A DNA stretch of 64,000 nucleotides. It comes from Collinsella aerofaciens (GTDB lineage Bacteria > Actinomycetota > Coriobacteriia > Coriobacteriales > Coriobacteriaceae). The stretch lies in NCBI RefSeq assembly GCF_005844325.1, contig NZ_SPFY01000003.1, positions 62,001 to 126,000 of the forward strand. Direction: 5' to 3'. A program made the position numbers and the translations under genes. Each line of letters opens with the position of its first letter. Position 1 is the first letter of the stretch. Below are positions 48,424-54,690 of this stretch, one piece after another. The notes below the pieces were generated by a model. It did no database searches. It was not told the DNA's origin and saw nothing but the letters and a program-made list of their open reading frames with translations.

Positions 48424-50877
48424 ATGCGCGTTTCTTACGACTGGCTCAAGACCATGATCGATATTCCGGAGGATCCCAAGACCCTTTCGGACGAATATAT
48501 CCGTACCGGCACCGAGGTCGAGGCGATCGACACCGTGGGCGAGTCCTTCGACCACGTGGTGACCGCCAAGGTGCTCACCAAGACCCCGCACCCCGATAGC
48601 GACCACATGTATGTGTGCTCGGTCGACGTGGGTGACAAGAACCTCGACGCCGACGGCAACCCCGCTCCGCTGCAGATCGTCTGCGGCGCGCAGAACTTCG
48701 AGGCCGGCGACCACATCGTCGCGGCCATGATTGGCGCCGTGCTTCCCGGCGACGTCAAGATCAAGAAGAGCAAGCTTCGCGGCGTCGTGTCCATGGGCAT
48801 GAACTGCTCCGCGCGCGAGCTCGGCTTGGGCGGCGACCACTCCGGCATCATGATCCTGCCCGAGGATACGCCCTGCGGCATGCCGTTTGCCGAGTACGTG
48901 GGCTCGAGTGATACCGTGCTCGACTGCGAGATTACGCCCAACCGCCCCGACTGCCTGTCCATGATCGGCATGGCCCGCGAGACCGGCGCCATCTTCGACC
49001 GCGATTTCCACGTTGAGCTGCCCGCCATTAAGGCCGAGGCCGGCCGCGCGACCGACGACGAGCTTTCCGTCGAGATCGCTGACGAGGGCCTGTGCGACCG
49101 CTACGTTGCCCGCATCGTGCGCAACGTCAAGGTCGGCCCGTCGCCCGACTGGATGGTCAAGCGCCTCAACGCCCTGGGCGTGCGTCCGCACAACAACATC
49201 GTCGACATCACCAACTATGTGATGATGCTCACCGGTCAGCCGCTGCACGCCTTTGACCTGGACACCTTTGCCGAGCGCGACGGTCATCGCCGCGTGGTGG
49301 TTCGCGCCGCCCAGCAGGACGAGAAGTTCACGACGCTCGACGGCGAGGAGCGCACGCTCGACGCCGGCATGGGCCTTATCACCGACGGCGAGCGCCCCGT
49401 GGCGTTGGCCGGCGTTATGGGCGGCATGGATTCCGAGATCGAGGACGACACCGTCGACGTGATGGTCGAGAGTGCTTGCTTCAACGCCGGTCGCACCTCG
49501 CACACCAGCCGCGATCTGTCGCTGATCTCCGATGCCTCCATCCGTTTTGAGCGCCAGGTCGATGAGACCGGCTGCGTGGATGTCGCCAACGTTACCTGCG
49601 CGCTGATCGAGGAGATCGCCGGCGGCGAGGTCGCTCCCGGCTACGTCGACGTGTTCCCCGCGCCCAAGACCATCGACAGCATCAAGCTGCGCCTGGCCCG
49701 CGTGCACGCCATTTGCGGTGCCGACATCGAGCCCGAGTTTATCGAGCGTTCGCTCACTCGCCTGGGCTGCACCGTCGAGCGCGACGGCGAGGACTTTATG
49801 GTTACCCCGCCGAGCTTCCGTCCCGACCTGCCGCGCGAGATCGATCTGATCGAGGAGGTCCTGCGCCTATGGGGCATGGGCCGTGTGACGGCGACCATCC
49901 CGGCTGCCAAGAACCATATTGGCGGCCTGACCCGCGAGCAGAAACTCACCCGTAAGGTCGGCGAGATCCTGCGCGCCTGCGGCCTCAACGAGACCACGAC
50001 TTTCGGCTTTGCCGCCCCGGGCGACCTTGAGAAGATCGGTATGTCCACCGAGGGCCGTGGCTGCCCCGTGGTGCTCATGAACCCGCTGGTGGCCGAGCAG
50101 ACCGAGATGCGCCGCTCGCTGCTGCCGGGTCTGCTGCAGTCTGTGGCCTACAACGAGGCCCACGGCACGCCCAACGTGCACCTGTACGAGGTCGGCAGCC
50201 TGTTCCACGGCCGCGAGAACGCTAGCCTGCCCAAGGAGACCAAGTCCGTGGCGGGTGTGCTCTCGGGCCAGTGGAGTGAGCAGTCCTGGAACATGAAGTA
50301 TCGCAAGCTGCGCTTCTTCTTTGGTAAGGGCATTGTCGAGGAGTTGCTCGCTCAGCTGCGCATCGAGAAGGTGCGCTTCCGTCCCGCCGAGGGCGAGAGC
50401 TATGCCTTCCTGCAACCGGGTCGTGCTGCCGAGGTACTCTCGGGCGGTACCGTGCTGGGCTGGGTCGGCGAGATTCACCCCGAGGCGCGCGAGGCCTGCG
50501 GCATAGATGAGGTCGTCGTTGCCTTTGAGCTCGATCTGGACAAGCTGATCAAGGGTGCCCGCAACCAGGAGAACTACCGTGAGTTCTCGCAGTACCCGGC
50601 TGTTGAGCACGACCTTGCAATCGTGGTCGACAACTCCGTGACCTGCGAGGACCTCGAGCGCCGTATTACCAGTGCCGGCGGCAAGCTGCTCGAGGGCGTG
50701 CGCCTGTTCGATGTCTACCGCGATCCGGTCCGCATTGGCAAGGGCAAGAAGTCCATGGCCTTTGCGCTTACGTATCGCTCCGACGATCACACGCTCACCA
50801 GCGAAGAGGTCGAGAAGGCGCACCAGAAGATCGTCACCAAGGTGTGCAAGGGCGTAAACGGCGAGGTCCGCGGCTAA
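48424..50877 (+). CDS. pheT: phenylalanine-tRNA ligase beta subunit
   Basis: 817 aa. Starts MRVSYDWLKTMIDIP. In order: the tRNA-binding EMAP-like domain (about 40-155), the B3/B4 editing domain (about 215-385), B5 (about 405-475), the catalytic-like core, and the C-terminal ferredoxin-fold anticodon-binding domain (about 720-815, SQYPAVEHDLAIVVDNSVTCEDLE). GAAAGGAG precedes the start, 63 bases after pheS. Confidence 0.96.
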   Translation: MRVSYDWLKTMIDIPEDPKTLSDEYIRTGTEVEAIDTVGESFDHVVTAKVLTKTPHPDSDHMYVCSVDVGDKNLDADGNPAPLQIVCGAQNFEAGDHIVAAMIGAVLPGDVKIKKSKLRGVVSMGMNCSARELGLGGDHSGIMILPEDTPCGMPFAEYVGSSDTVLDCEITPNRPDCLSMIGMARETGAIFDRDFHVELPAIKAEAGRATDDELSVEIADEGLCDRYVARIVRNVKVGPSPDWMVKRLNALGVRPHNNIVDITNYVMMLTGQPLHAFDLDTFAERDGHRRVVVRAAQQDEKFTTLDGEERTLDAGMGLITDGERPVALAGVMGGMDSEIEDDTVDVMVESACFNAGRTSHTSRDLSLISDASIRFERQVDETGCVDVANVTCALIEEIAGGEVAPGYVDVFPAPKTIDSIKLRLARVHAICGADIEPEFIERSLTRLGCTVERDGEDFMVTPPSFRPDLPREIDLIEEVLRLWGMGRVTATIPAAKNHIGGLTREQKLTRKVGEILRACGLNETTTFGFAAPGDLEKIGMSTEGRGCPVVLMNPLVAEQTEMRRSLLPGLLQSVAYNEAHGTPNVHLYEVGSLFHGRENASLPKETKSVAGVLSGQWSEQSWNMKYRKLRFFFGKGIVEELLAQLRIEKVRFRPAEGESYAFLQPGRAAEVLSGGTVLGWVGEIHPEAREACGIDEVVVAFELDLDKLIKGARNQENYREFSQYPAVEHDLAIVVDNSVTCEDLERRITSAGGKLLEGVRLFDVYRDPVRIGKGKKSMAFALTYRSDDHTLTSEEVEKAHQKIVTKVCKGVNGEVRG

Positions 50878-50908: not shown

Positions 50909-50947
50909 AAACGGCGCACTGCTTTGTTGGCAGTGCGCCGTTTGCTA
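50909..50947 (+). terminator. terminator after pheST
   Basis: AAACGGCGCACTGC (50909-50922) pairs perfectly with GCAGTGCGCCGTTT (50930-50943); T residues are within the stem end. Confidence 0.85.
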
Positions 50948-50961
50948 TGATAGCCGGCGGC

Positions 50962-50989
50962 GTGTTACGAATCTATCAATACGTAACAC
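50962..50989. promoter_or_regulatory. NikR-type operator upstream of the nickel/cobalt transporter
   Basis: GTGTTAC and GTAACAC half-sites are separated by 14 bp. This is the form GTGTTAC-N13/14-GTAACAC described for NikR in several non-enteric bacteria. It lies 56 bp upstream of the NikMN start. No nikR gene is in the window. Confidence 0.7.
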
Positions 50990-51044: not shown

Positions 51045-52130
51045 ATGCACATTCCAGATAATTATCTGTCCCCGCAGACCGATGCCGTCATGGCGGTGGC
51101 GATGGTGCCCGTTTGGGTTCACTGCATCAAGAAGGTGCGCGCCACGCTCGATCGCGAGCACATGGCTTTTCTGGGCATCTGCGCCGCGTTCTCCTTTTTG
51201 CTCATGATGTTCAACGTGCCGCTGCCCGGCGGCACCACGGGTCACGCCGTCGGCGGTGCGCTCATCGCACTGCTGCTGGGTCCCGAGGCCGCTGCCATCG
51301 CGGTTTCGGTCGCGCTGGCGCTGCAAGCGCTGCTGTTTGGCGACGGCGGCATCCTGTCCTTTGGCGCTAACTGCTTTAACATGGCCTTCGTGTTGCCGTT
51401 TGCCGCAGCCATCGTGTTCCGCGCGCTTAACAGCCGTTTGCACGACAAGAGCTGGGGCACCTCGGTTTCGGCCATCGTAAGCGGCTGGGTCGGCCTGTGC
51501 CTGGCGGCCCTGTGCGCAGCAATCGAGTTTGGTATTCAGCCGATGCTTTTCACGAATGCTTCGGGCGCTCCGCTGTACTGCCCCTTCCCGCTGTCCATTG
51601 CCATTCCGGCCATGATGATCCCGCATATGTTGGTAGCCGGCGTGGTCGAGGGCGTGGCGACTGCCGCGATCTACGGCTTTATCAAGAAGACGGCGCCGAG
51701 CGTTATCGTCGGCCCCGAAGCCGCCGATGGACAGCTTGCTGCCGAGGGCGCTGCTGCAAAGAAGACCTCGCTGGTCCCCACGCTCATCTTGGTTGCCGTG
51801 CTTGTCGTGGCCACGCCGCTGGGCCTGCTGGCCACGGGTGACGCCTGGGGTGAGTGGGACGCCGAGGGCGCCGCGACCGCCGTTCAGGAGGCTGGCGACG
51901 ACAGCCTGCAGGCTTCGGTCGGTCTCGACACCCCGACCTTTGCCGACGCTCTGCCTACGGGTGATTACCTGCAGGCCTATTCCGAGGAGCAGGGTCTCGG
52001 CTTTGCCGGTCAGGCTGCCATGTATATCTTGTCCGGCGTGATTGGCGTGGCGGTGCTCACCATCGCATTCCGTCTGATCTCGCTGACGGTCAAGGAAAGC
52101 GGAGCCCATGGCGATGGTCGAGCTGCCTAG
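51045..52130 (+). CDS. ECF-type nickel/cobalt transporter substrate-binding membrane protein (NikMN/CbiM-type)
   Basis: 361 aa. N-terminal MHIPDNYLSPQTDAV supplies the metal-coordinating Met1, His2 and surrounding residues of CbiM/NikM. Core helices include PLPGGTTGHAVGGALIALLLGPEAA and ALQALLFGDGGILSFGANCFNM. After a linker, the C-terminus (about 245-361) has two helices resembling a fused NikN/PDGLE part. GGGAGG before 51045 sets the start. First gene of three; the NikR-type site upstream favours nickel over cobalt. Confidence 0.9.
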   Translation: MHIPDNYLSPQTDAVMAVAMVPVWVHCIKKVRATLDREHMAFLGICAAFSFLLMMFNVPLPGGTTGHAVGGALIALLLGPEAAAIAVSVALALQALLFGDGGILSFGANCFNMAFVLPFAAAIVFRALNSRLHDKSWGTSVSAIVSGWVGLCLAALCAAIEFGIQPMLFTNASGAPLYCPFPLSIAIPAMMIPHMLVAGVVEGVATAAIYGFIKKTAPSVIVGPEAADGQLAAEGAAAKKTSLVPTLILVAVLVVATPLGLLATGDAWGEWDAEGAATAVQEAGDDSLQASVGLDTPTFADALPTGDYLQAYSEEQGLGFAGQAAMYILSGVIGVAVLTIAFRLISLTVKESGAHGDGRAA

Positions 52131-52944
52131 CTGGCTTGCGGCCGAGGAGCGATACGAGCCCACGGGCGCTCGTCATCGCGTGATGCAAAAGAACGTCCTG
52201 CACCTGGCGAGCCTGCTTGAGCGGGTTCGCCTGGGTGGAGGCGCGCACGAGGGCGGGTCGATGGTCGACCGCGCCCTTTCTTGCGTTTCGGCTCCGGTGC
52301 GCCTGGTGGGGATATTCGTTTGCGTCCTGTGCGTGTGCCTGACACAAAGCCCGCTGTACCTCATGTTGATGGCGGCCATTGCGCTGGTGCTCGTTGCCGT
52401 GCGTCCCATACGCGGGCTGCGCGCGACCTTTGTGCCGGCGCTTGGCGCCGCGGGGCTCGCAGTGGTTTTGGCGCTGCCTGCCCTGCTGCTGGGTGCTTCC
52501 GCTACGGGCGCCATGCTCAAGATTGCGCTCAAGACCTTCATTAATGTGTCGCTGGTGCTGGGCGCTTCGTGGACCCTCACGTGGAGCCGCATGTCGGCGG
52601 CGCTCAAGATGCTGCATCTACCCGACGAAGTTATCTTTACGTTTGATATGGCGCTCAAGCACATCGAGGTGCTGGGTCGTACGGCGCACGATCTGTGCGA
52701 ATCGGTCATGCTGCGCAGCGTTGGCCGTGCGCCCGAGGGATTTTCGCGTACCGATTCGATCGCGGGTATCATGGGCATGACCTTTATCAAGGCGATGAAA
52801 TGCAGCCGCGCGATGGACGAGGCTATGCTTTGCCGCGGCTTTGCCGGTGCGTATCCGGCTCCCGCGCGCGCCAGGTTTGGCTGGCGCGATGCGGCCTATG
52901 CGGCCGGCGTGGCGCTGCTGACAGTGTTGTGCGCCGTGCTGTAG
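52108..52944 (+). CDS. ECF transporter transmembrane (T) component, CbiQ/NikQ
   Basis: 278 aa. Starts inside the previous gene (23-base overlap), which implies coupled translation. Membrane helices at about 65-160; the coupling region has ARGIM-type short motifs such as MLRSVGRA and CRGFAGAYP, which contact the ATPase. Completes the scaffold of the nickel/cobalt importer. Confidence 0.88.
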   Translation: MAMVELPSWLAAEERYEPTGARHRVMQKNVLHLASLLERVRLGGGAHEGGSMVDRALSCVSAPVRLVGIFVCVLCVCLTQSPLYLMLMAAIALVLVAVRPIRGLRATFVPALGAAGLAVVLALPALLLGASATGAMLKIALKTFINVSLVLGASWTLTWSRMSAALKMLHLPDEVIFTFDMALKHIEVLGRTAHDLCESVMLRSVGRAPEGFSRTDSIAGIMGMTFIKAMKCSRAMDEAMLCRGFAGAYPAPARARFGWRDAAYAAGVALLTVLCAVL

Positions 52945-52966: not shown

Positions 52967-53761
52967 ATGCAAATGGGGAAGGGCGACGTTTTGACGATCG
53001 ATATGAATAGTGCGGCGGGCACGAACGGTGTGGGCGGCGCCGAGGTCGTTCCGCTCATCGAGCTGCGCGACGTGGTGTTCTCCTATGCGGGGCATACGGT
53101 TGTCGATGGCGTGTCGCTGCAGGTCGATCGTGGTGAACTCGTTGCCCTGCTCGGTCCCAACGGCTGCGGCAAGACGACGATTATGCGTCTTATTAACGGC
53201 CTTGAACTCGCGGACGCAGGGGCATACCTGTTTGACGGGCACGTGGTCGATGCGGCGTATCTGAAGGATTCTGCTGCTGCTCAGAAGTTCCACCAGCGCG
53301 TGGGCTTCGTGTTCCAAAACGCCGATGCCCAGCTGTTCTGCGCCACGGTGGACGAGGAAGTTGCTTTTGGTCCCGCGCAGATGGGGCTGCCGGCAGACGA
53401 GCTCGAGCGCCGCGTGCGCGATGCCATGGGGCTGTTCCAGGTTGCCGACCTTGCCGACGCCTCTCCCTATCAGCTCTCGGGCGGGCAAAAGAAGCGTGTG
53501 GCGCTGGCGGCAGTTGTATCGATGAACCCCGATATCCTAGTGCTCGATGAGCCCACCAATGGGCTCGACGAGGATTCATGCGACATCGTGGTCAACTTCT
53601 TGCTGGCCTACGTCGCGGCGGGTAAGACGGTCTTGATGAGCACGCATCACCAGGATTTGGTGCGACGCCTGGGTGCCCGTGCAATCTATATCGATCGATA
53701 TCACCATGTGGTCGAGGCGCCTTCGCCGTCGTATGGAACCGAAAGCGGTACTACGGACTAG
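52967..53761 (+). CDS. ECF transporter ATP-binding protein, CbiO/NikO
   Basis: 264 aa. Walker A GPNGCGKTT, Q-loop VFQNADAQLF (typical of ECF ATPases), signature LSGGQKKRVALAA, Walker B ILVLDEPTNGLDE and switch His in MSTHHQD. The first 30 residues are a poorly conserved lead; ATGs at 52967, 52973 and 53003 are all possible and none has a strong ribosome site. Last gene of the importer. Confidence 0.92.
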   Translation: MQMGKGDVLTIDMNSAAGTNGVGGAEVVPLIELRDVVFSYAGHTVVDGVSLQVDRGELVALLGPNGCGKTTIMRLINGLELADAGAYLFDGHVVDAAYLKDSAAAQKFHQRVGFVFQNADAQLFCATVDEEVAFGPAQMGLPADELERRVRDAMGLFQVADLADASPYQLSGGQKKRVALAAVVSMNPDILVLDEPTNGLDEDSCDIVVNFLLAYVAAGKTVLMSTHHQDLVRRLGARAIYIDRYHHVVEAPSPSYGTESGTTD

Positions 53762-53841
53762 TTGCTGCGTAGAGCGTGCGTAGCCGCCCGCGCGGCTTTG
53801 CCGTGATGGTATAGTTATCCAGGTTTTTTATGGGGGTGGCT

Positions 53842-54690
53842 ATGCCAAGTTGGAACATTCATATCGCTCAGACGGAGCGTTTGCTGGAGCGCACCGGTGC
53901 ACTTGCCAATAGCGTGCGCGACCGCAATGCCTTTTTGTTTGGCTGCGTGGTTCCGGATATCTTCGTGGGCTATATGGTCCCTGGCATCGCCGATCCCATC
54001 CCGTACCGCATTACGCACTTTGCAAAGCCCGAGCCTATCCCTAAGCCTCGTGAGCATGAGTTCTGGGATACCTATGTGGCACCGTTGCTTAAAAGTTCGC
54101 CCACCGGTGCGCCAGCCGCGGCTACCTCGATTGTCGAGGAGCGCGAGCGACTGAATCGCGTGCATTATCCCCAACGTTACAAGGACGCCGAGCCGGTCGC
54201 CGGTCCCGGTGCTAGCGAGCTTTCGCTCGCGCCCGATGACGTGGCGCAGTCGCTGCTCGATCTGACGCTGGGCGTTTGGTCGCATCTGGTGGCCGATACC
54301 GTATGGAATACGCGTGTGAATCAGTACCTGGAGGCGCACGGCGGCAAGCCGTGCGAGGAATTCCGCATTAAAAAGCAAGGCGACTTTGACTGGTTTGGCA
54401 AGACACTCGGCATCGTTTCGATACCGCGCGCGACCGATCGCCTGTATACTGCGGCGACCCGTTTTGGTCAGTATCCCATCCATAAGGAGTATGTGCTCAA
54501 GACCATCGGCGTTATGCACGAGATTGTACGCGAAAACCCCGGCGAGTCCGATCATCCGCCGTATCGCCTGCTAACCGAGGAGTTTTTCGATACAACGTTT
54601 ACCGAGGTCATCGAGCTAACCGAGGCGGGATTTGCGGCTCGCGTCGAATCGCCCGATATGCCTGCGCTTCCCCTGATTGCTAGCTGCTAG
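53842..54690 (+). CDS. zinc-dependent phospholipase C family protein
   Basis: 282 aa. MPSWNIHIAQTERLLERTG, then FLFGCVVPDIFVGYM and HFA (metal-ligand-type His and Asp), and GVWSHLVADTVWN, match the alpha-helical Zn_dep_PLPC domain. Despite the family name, such stand-alone proteins without signal peptide are uncharacterised. GGGGGTGG precedes the ATG at 53842 (53830 is possible). Its TAG overlaps the convergent gene's stop at a shared CTAG. Confidence 0.82.
   Translation: MPSWNIHIAQTERLLERTGALANSVRDRNAFLFGCVVPDIFVGYMVPGIADPIPYRITHFAKPEPIPKPREHEFWDTYVAPLLKSSPTGAPAAATSIVEERERLNRVHYPQRYKDAEPVAGPGASELSLAPDDVAQSLLDLTLGVWSHLVADTVWNTRVNQYLEAHGGKPCEEFRIKKQGDFDWFGKTLGIVSIPRATDRLYTAATRFGQYPIHKEYVLKTIGVMHEIVRENPGESDHPPYRLLTEEFFDTTFTEVIELTEAGFAARVESPDMPALPLIASC

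Follow-up and report, generated by a model that had tools for sequence, protein, structure and literature searches.

A predicted NikR operator at an ECF importer operon of Collinsella aerofaciens, and the orientation of NikR half-sites in the genus

A 2004 paper (PMC545781) gives GTGTTAC-[N13/14]-GTAACAC as the predicted NikR signal of the delta-proteobacteria; Geobacter has it ahead of nik(MN)QO, and predicted NikR operators also precede nikMQO in Desulfovibrio. The same text describes NikR sites of reversed form, GTAACAC-N13-GTGTTAC, in Desulfotalea psychrophila, and quotes the enterobacterial NikR operator as GTATGAT-N13/14-ATCATAC. For Helicobacter pylori PMC5385501 gives the NikR consensus TRTTA-N15-TAWTA. 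A site of this general kind is analyzed here within a 64,000-nucleotide stretch of Collinsella aerofaciens DNA (the window). The initial annotation had taken it for a match to the NikR consensus known outside enterics, and rightly so, its half-sites being the same GTGTTAC elements as in PMC545781. With the Geobacter and Desulfovibrio operators, as that text presents them, it shares the half-sites, the N13/14 spacer and the inverted orientation, and the transporter genes are fused as nik(MN)QO as in Geobacter. Unlike those operators it is found in the Coriobacteriia (Actinomycetota), the gene for its regulator adjoins hypF on a different contig, and in the genus the arms of every one of the 20 nikMN operators include an eighth base pair. 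The Desulfotalea sites, from the same source, have the same half-sites at similar spacing and a changed orientation; they are everted, whereas the window site is inverted and 11 of 17 Collinsella yntA promoters, described below, carry direct repeats. The enterobacterial operator, as quoted there, resembles the window's in having two half-sites of the same length at a nickel importer promoter, but its half-site sequence is different and it controls NikABCDE rather than an ECF importer. The H. pylori sites of PMC5385501, like the window's, place the half-sites of one tetramer at a distance of two helical turns, but are AT-rich and pseudo-palindromic and serve a wide regulon.

A motif search of the window places GTGTTACGAATCTATCAATACGTAACAC at 50962-50989 of the plus strand, exactly 28 bp in length and an exact N14 form of GTGTTAC-N13/14-GTAACAC, in agreement with the initial annotation as to position. 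The palindrome it described is present as well, except that the arms measure 8 bp each (GTGTTACG and CGTAACAC), one more than the 7 bp claimed, and the predicted operator thus reads GTGTTACG-N12-CGTAACAC. This is the sole match in the window at up to three mismatches; because the shuffled window gives 0.79 matches at that loose threshold, weight is put on the exactness of the match. The 2.19 Mb genome contains one exact copy only, followed by one site with two mismatches and 22 with three, and shows no genome-wide enrichment at up to three mismatches (24 sites vs 84 for the pattern read backward), so that the case is built on exactness together with conservation. The two-mismatch site, second best in the genome (contig C22, 85661-85688, locus L003 of G000), is AT-rich and lies just upstream of an ATPase-like ORF; it was considered as a second operator and rejected, as it is probably due to chance. 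A search for half-site pairs spaced 20-22 bp, with up to one mismatch allowed per half-site, yielded no further operator in the window, and no second pair in the same genome's regions of nikR/hypF, of both hydrogenases and of the cobalamin cluster.

The order of genes implied by the initial annotation is borne out: a pheT-like ORF ends at 50877 and is followed by nikMN, nikQ and nikO. The pheT-like ORF (48424-50877, plus strand), named from reading its sequence rather than from a family search, is outside the regulated unit; a pheT-like C-terminal sequence lies upstream of nikMN at seven of the eight loci checked, the window locus counted, with no match in locus L079 of genome G076. A perfect 13-bp hairpin (50910-50942, plus strand) is probably the pheT terminator, its T tail being too short for it to be scored by the terminator rule. 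A -10-like TATGAT preceded by TGC is found at 50946-50951 (plus strand), the palindrome begins 10 bases after it, and the ATG of nikMN is at 51045; there is no good -35 box near TATGAT, and a generic sigma-70 scan gave no promoter. In all 20 nikMN promoters of the genus with the operator a -10-like hexamer lies 9-10 nt upstream of it, this placement having been chosen as the best among 12 positions in each promoter, uncontrolled, as also for the yntA promoters below.

The operon itself contains the M, Q and O components of an ECF importer. nikMN (51045-52130, plus strand), assigned by Pfam and NCBIfam, encodes a protein in which a CbiM/NikM substrate-binding (S) component is joined to a PDGLE domain of NikN type, with Pfam scores of 194.8 bits for CbiM and 33.6 bits for PDGLE, both above cut-off. 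nikQ (52108-52944, plus strand) encodes the ECF T component (Pfam CbiQ, 52.1 bits, above cut-off; TIGR02454 under its cut-off), and nikO (52967-53761, plus strand) the ECF ATPase (Pfam ABC_tran above cut-off), for which the best NCBIfam model is TIGR01166 cbiO at 186.9 bits, under the cut-off of 211.8. Members of the NikMNQO family often, but not necessarily, have a nickel enzyme next to them; the neighbors here are the pheT-like ORF on one side and, on the other, an ORF weakly resembling phospholipase C, and no nickel enzyme is adjacent. The latter ORF, at 53830-54690 after nikO, has a sub-threshold match to zinc-dependent phospholipase C (23.6 bits vs a cut-off of 26.8).

The reading preferred here, at a probability of roughly 0.88, is that 50962-50989 is a NikR operator at which nickel-bound NikR would cover the transcription start and repress the nikMN-nikQ-nikO importer. 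NikR is a tetramer, and at sufficient cell nickel each half-site, separated from the other by two helical turns, would be occupied by an RHH dimer of Ni-NikR; the protein would then lie across the transcription start, close to the -10 box on its downstream side, and turn the operon off. When nickel is short NikR would be released, and the importer would be made and would supply the [NiFe] hydrogenases. Binding, its nickel dependence, the repression and nickel as main substrate are predictions from sequence. The palindrome might instead function as an RNA hairpin in the leader, as an 8-bp stem could form in the transcript, yet folding of the leader is no better than that of shuffles (z -0.50), no match to an Rfam family reaches gathering threshold there, and the direct repeats of 11 yntA promoters would be unable to form such a stem; a hairpin or Rfam element was rejected on the first two counts, and this explanation is highly improbable.

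Conservation of the site was followed in the class and in the genus. A scan of 149 class genomes for the exact pattern GTGTTACN{12,16}GTAACAC gave 26 matches, in 24 genomes, and for the backward pattern three; NikR is present in all 24 of these genomes as compared to 91 of the 149 overall (hypergeometric 2e-6, kinship ignored). Within the genus nikMN is found in 21 of 43 genomes, all with NikR, and the operator lies at the transporter promoter and is conserved there in 20 of the 21 (19 exact and one, G098, with one mismatch). The remaining genome, G076, has a NikMN 73% identical and a NikR, and no site before nikMN. The arms of the operators are constant, the eighth base pair being retained in 20 of 20, and spacers and flanks vary; in G152 and G157 the flanking DNA is different as well, and at L141 and L145, which have the spacer sequence of G152 and G157, the distance from operator start to ATG is 52 bp rather than 83-85. 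A palindrome arisen by chance would be compatible with the 0.79 three-mismatch matches expected per window and the lack of genome enrichment, but hardly with an exact match whose arms are kept in 20 nikMN promoters despite a varying spacer, nor with 26 exact against three reversed-pattern matches in the 149 genomes, and chance can be all but dismissed.

A wider set consisted of nikMN relatives in named genomes, the best 80 of 362 being examined over 300 bp upstream at up to two mismatches. The site was found at all 17 close Collinsella loci of this set (94-100% identity), 16 exact and one with one mismatch, and at three other loci with 0-2 mismatches, including an exact copy in Rummeliibacillus; Collinsella locus L147 (72% identity) has no site, and 60 of the 80 homologues, mostly from other phyla, were without one within these limits. 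Inspection of 24 exact-motif loci (the window's own and L017-L039, with the second sites of G039 and G054 left out) placed the motif before nikMN in 10, before a gene for an ABC-type solute-binding protein in another 10, just before nikR in one (G101), with three unassigned. Three of the 10 binding proteins were run on NCBIfam, with NikA the best model, under its cut-off; P0003, the one of these three compared with structures, has as its closest chain the nickel-binding YntA of Yersinia, and the other seven were judged by eye from their first ~110 residues.

The regulator, which the initial annotation had supposed to be encoded elsewhere and whose absence from the genome would have told against the operator, was found: nikR is on contig C31, away from the window contig. 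Its product of 170 residues (P0002), read from a GTG start, has RHH (PF01402, 29.8 bits) and NikR_C (PF08753, 110 bits) domains above cut-off. Of five NCBIfam NikR models, four likewise score above cut-off, and the TIGR02793 NikR equivalog model is below it (120.1 vs 175.45). The closest solved chain is 2bj1, with which its QH...HVH.....C aligns (2wvd has QH...HIH.....C), and the His, HxH and Cys are presumed to be the NikR nickel ligands. Directly downstream of nikR is hypF, and the genome has two hydrogenase clusters, read as group 4, the one Hyf/Hyc-like with HycI and a HycH-like protein and the other smaller; the [NiFe] large subunits of both retain both CxxC pairs, and thus the cell has a use for nickel. 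In the genus NikR is found in 36 of 43 genomes and HypF in 37, every one of the 36 NikR genomes having HypF. The only HypF genome without NikR is G169, whose assembly is 87% complete, and nikR may be absent from the assembly and not from the genome. The 30 genus nikR loci examined, of the 36 found, have no half-site pair at 20-22 bp with one mismatch or none per half-site, hence no sign of nikR autoregulation there.

Two other features of nikR were observed. The product of the gene (L001, 1471-1983, minus strand) has ahead of its RHH domain an N-terminal extension rich in His and Cys (~30 residues), which might bind metal beside the DNA-reading strand. Such an extension is seen at 22 of the 30 genus nikR loci, those of the 20 genomes in which nikMN has its operator, and of G167 and G168; in the other eight NikRs it is missing or just mildly His-rich (G171, G076). 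An 82-residue ORF without a Pfam match (L001, 1985-2233, minus strand) ends just before nikR, alternate-frame traces of it seem by eye to recur before nikR in several members of the genus, and it is possibly a co-translated partner of nikR.

The initial annotation had also assigned nickel rather than cobalt to the importer. For regulation by nickel there is good support in NikR and its co-occurrence with the site, the promoter position and the conservation; for exclusive use of nickel there is not, in view of the cobalamin genes and the single CbiM/NikM gene. NCBIfam names the NikMN product a cobalt transporter CbiM (narrowly for the full-length model NF005598, 403.1 bits against a cut-off of 401; more clearly for the shorter cobalt transporter CbiM model, 285.7 bits against 225). 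Its nearest solved structures are 4m58/4m5b, taken here to be the nickel-type NikM2. For the three operon proteins Pfam lists no match to CbiN; a PDGLE domain, presumably the mark of NikN, scores above cut-off instead. A cobalamin cluster with CbiC, CbiG and CbiK lies on a contig other than that of nikMN, no second CbiM/NikM gene was found in the genome, and no cobalamin riboswitch was found at gathering threshold by Rfam in the window and five other stretches. The CbiK cobalt chelatase (L211, 8743-9756, plus strand) lies beside the cobalamin cluster and has by eye a lipoprotein-like signal, which suggests that it may act outside the membrane.

NikR could therefore control an importer used for cobalt in addition to nickel, or for cobalt more than for nickel, feeding both cobalamin synthesis and the hydrogenases. 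This is a possible though rather unlikely arrangement, favored by the sole CbiM/NikM gene, by the presence of CbiC, CbiG and CbiK, and by the occurrence in the genus of CbiC in 16 of the 21 genomes with NikMN vs one of the 22 without. However, that link may reflect shared ancestry within one clade, and of the five NikMN genomes that lack CbiC, four (G104, G146, G158, G166) retain the exact operator. NikMN and a YntA-type nickel importer also replace each other in the genus, and the N domain is of the NikN (PDGLE) type, NikN being nickel-specific and CbiN cobalt-specific according to PMC2667541. Nickel is thus the likely regulated and main substrate of NikMNQO, transport being deduced from the sequences.

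Relatives of P0003 (59-64% identity) are found in 17 of the 43 genomes of the genus, distributed such that 20 genomes have only NikMN, 16 only YntA, one both (G076) and six neither (Fisher 5e-6, kinship ignored). One or the other importer is carried by 35 of the 37 HypF genomes; the two HypF genomes with neither are G167 (72% complete) and G168 (96%), where the absence may reflect incomplete assembly. The YntA-type gene is also present in two genomes without HypF, G064 and G154. In G076 (L079, L225), the only member of the genus with both importers, nikMN has no operator and the yntA promoter has an imperfect direct repeat. At locus L231 a permease-like ORF follows yntA, as judged by eye.

In 15 of the 17 yntA promoters (L223-L239) there are two half-sites at a spacing of exactly 21 bp, neither with more than one mismatch, as compared to 0 or 1 of 17 with a pair in 500 rounds of mononucleotide shuffling. 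Four of these 15 pairs are inverted and 11 direct; 10 of the latter read GTAACAC...GTAACAC, with both copies exact in six, and the eleventh, in G076, is on the opposite strand with one mismatch per copy. A -10-like hexamer lies 6-15 nt ahead of the pair. A weak left-hand inverted half-site at some direct-repeat promoters was considered as a third half-site and rejected, as it overlaps the -10-like hexamers. The two promoters without a pair are those of G064 and G154, both NikR-negative, and a third NikR-negative genome with yntA, G169, retains an inverted pair.

In a tree of 12 of the 17 YntA-type proteins and an outgroup (five rows dropped, one of them short), G154 groups with G048 and G064 with G164, and inverted sites appear at two places. 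Since G048 and G164 carry perfect direct repeats, the position of G154 and G064 beside them suggests that the half-sites were lost twice together with NikR; co-loss of site and regulator is likely. These data also bear on whether a different regulator recognizes GTGTTAC. That NikR binding to the site is a prediction, and that G169 keeps its pair with NikR not found in the 87% complete assembly, would fit such a regulator, but NikR is present in 24 of 24 exact-motif genomes of the 149, the NikR-negative G064 and G154 are without the pair that their sister sequences keep, and the motif stands just before nikR in G101. Another regulator is thus very improbable, and NikR is retained as the protein that would bind the site.

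An inverted and a direct pair differ solely in the central triplet of a single half-site (GT-GTT-AC in the former, GT-AAC-AC in the latter); the GT...AC ends remain mostly constant, and a flanking GAAT...ATTC is retained in many spacers. The spacing of the half-sites looks fixed and their orientation free. The ends of GTNNNAC are two-fold symmetric, and each RHH dimer may read the half-site either way: as inferred from sequence, a two-fold symmetric dimer would contact mainly the symmetric ends and tolerate the triplet in both directions, with the NikR tetramer setting the fixed 21-bp register. An RFS(V/I) strand in the DNA-binding domain is common to the NikRs of genomes with inverted sites (the nikMN group, G118, G171) and with direct repeats (G021, G048, G092, G165, G170), a comparison that covers these and, of the other yntA genomes, G076 alone; a special NikR is therefore seemingly not required for direct repeats. 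It is somewhat favored that NikR half-sites are orientation-blind, so that the inverted (window), everted (Desulfotalea) and direct (Collinsella yntA) forms would be one class of site and the same NikR would have been moved between two unrelated nickel importers in the genus. Direct-repeat NikR operators may be new; among the matches listed, which leave subscription literature out of scope, no title or abstract opening is on a direct-repeat NikR operator or on a Collinsella NikR.

The site at 50962-50989, its conservation, its promoter position, the NikR, the nickel enzymes and the co-occurrence with NikR are results of computation. A NikR operator is the best explanation of them, with the following points against it: the siteless nikMN of G076, the pair without NikR in G169, the TIGR02793 score below cut-off, the 60 of 80 siteless homologues, the cobalamin cluster and CbiC link, the cobalt name in NCBIfam and the missing -35 box. 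At the window site NikR would almost certainly bind and shut off an importer of nickel and possibly of cobalt too.

An importer of a gut bacterium, named a cobalt transporter by NCBIfam, can thus be given a regulator and a probable metal. The window operator itself is of an already described kind, and the predicted delta-proteobacterial NikR code would be extended by it to the Coriobacteriia. The genus appears to present a natural experiment, in that the half-site pair is gone in two NikR-less genomes and, where NikR is kept, orientation varies and spacing is constant. Such half-site variation would make testable a simple question of how RHH tetramers read DNA.
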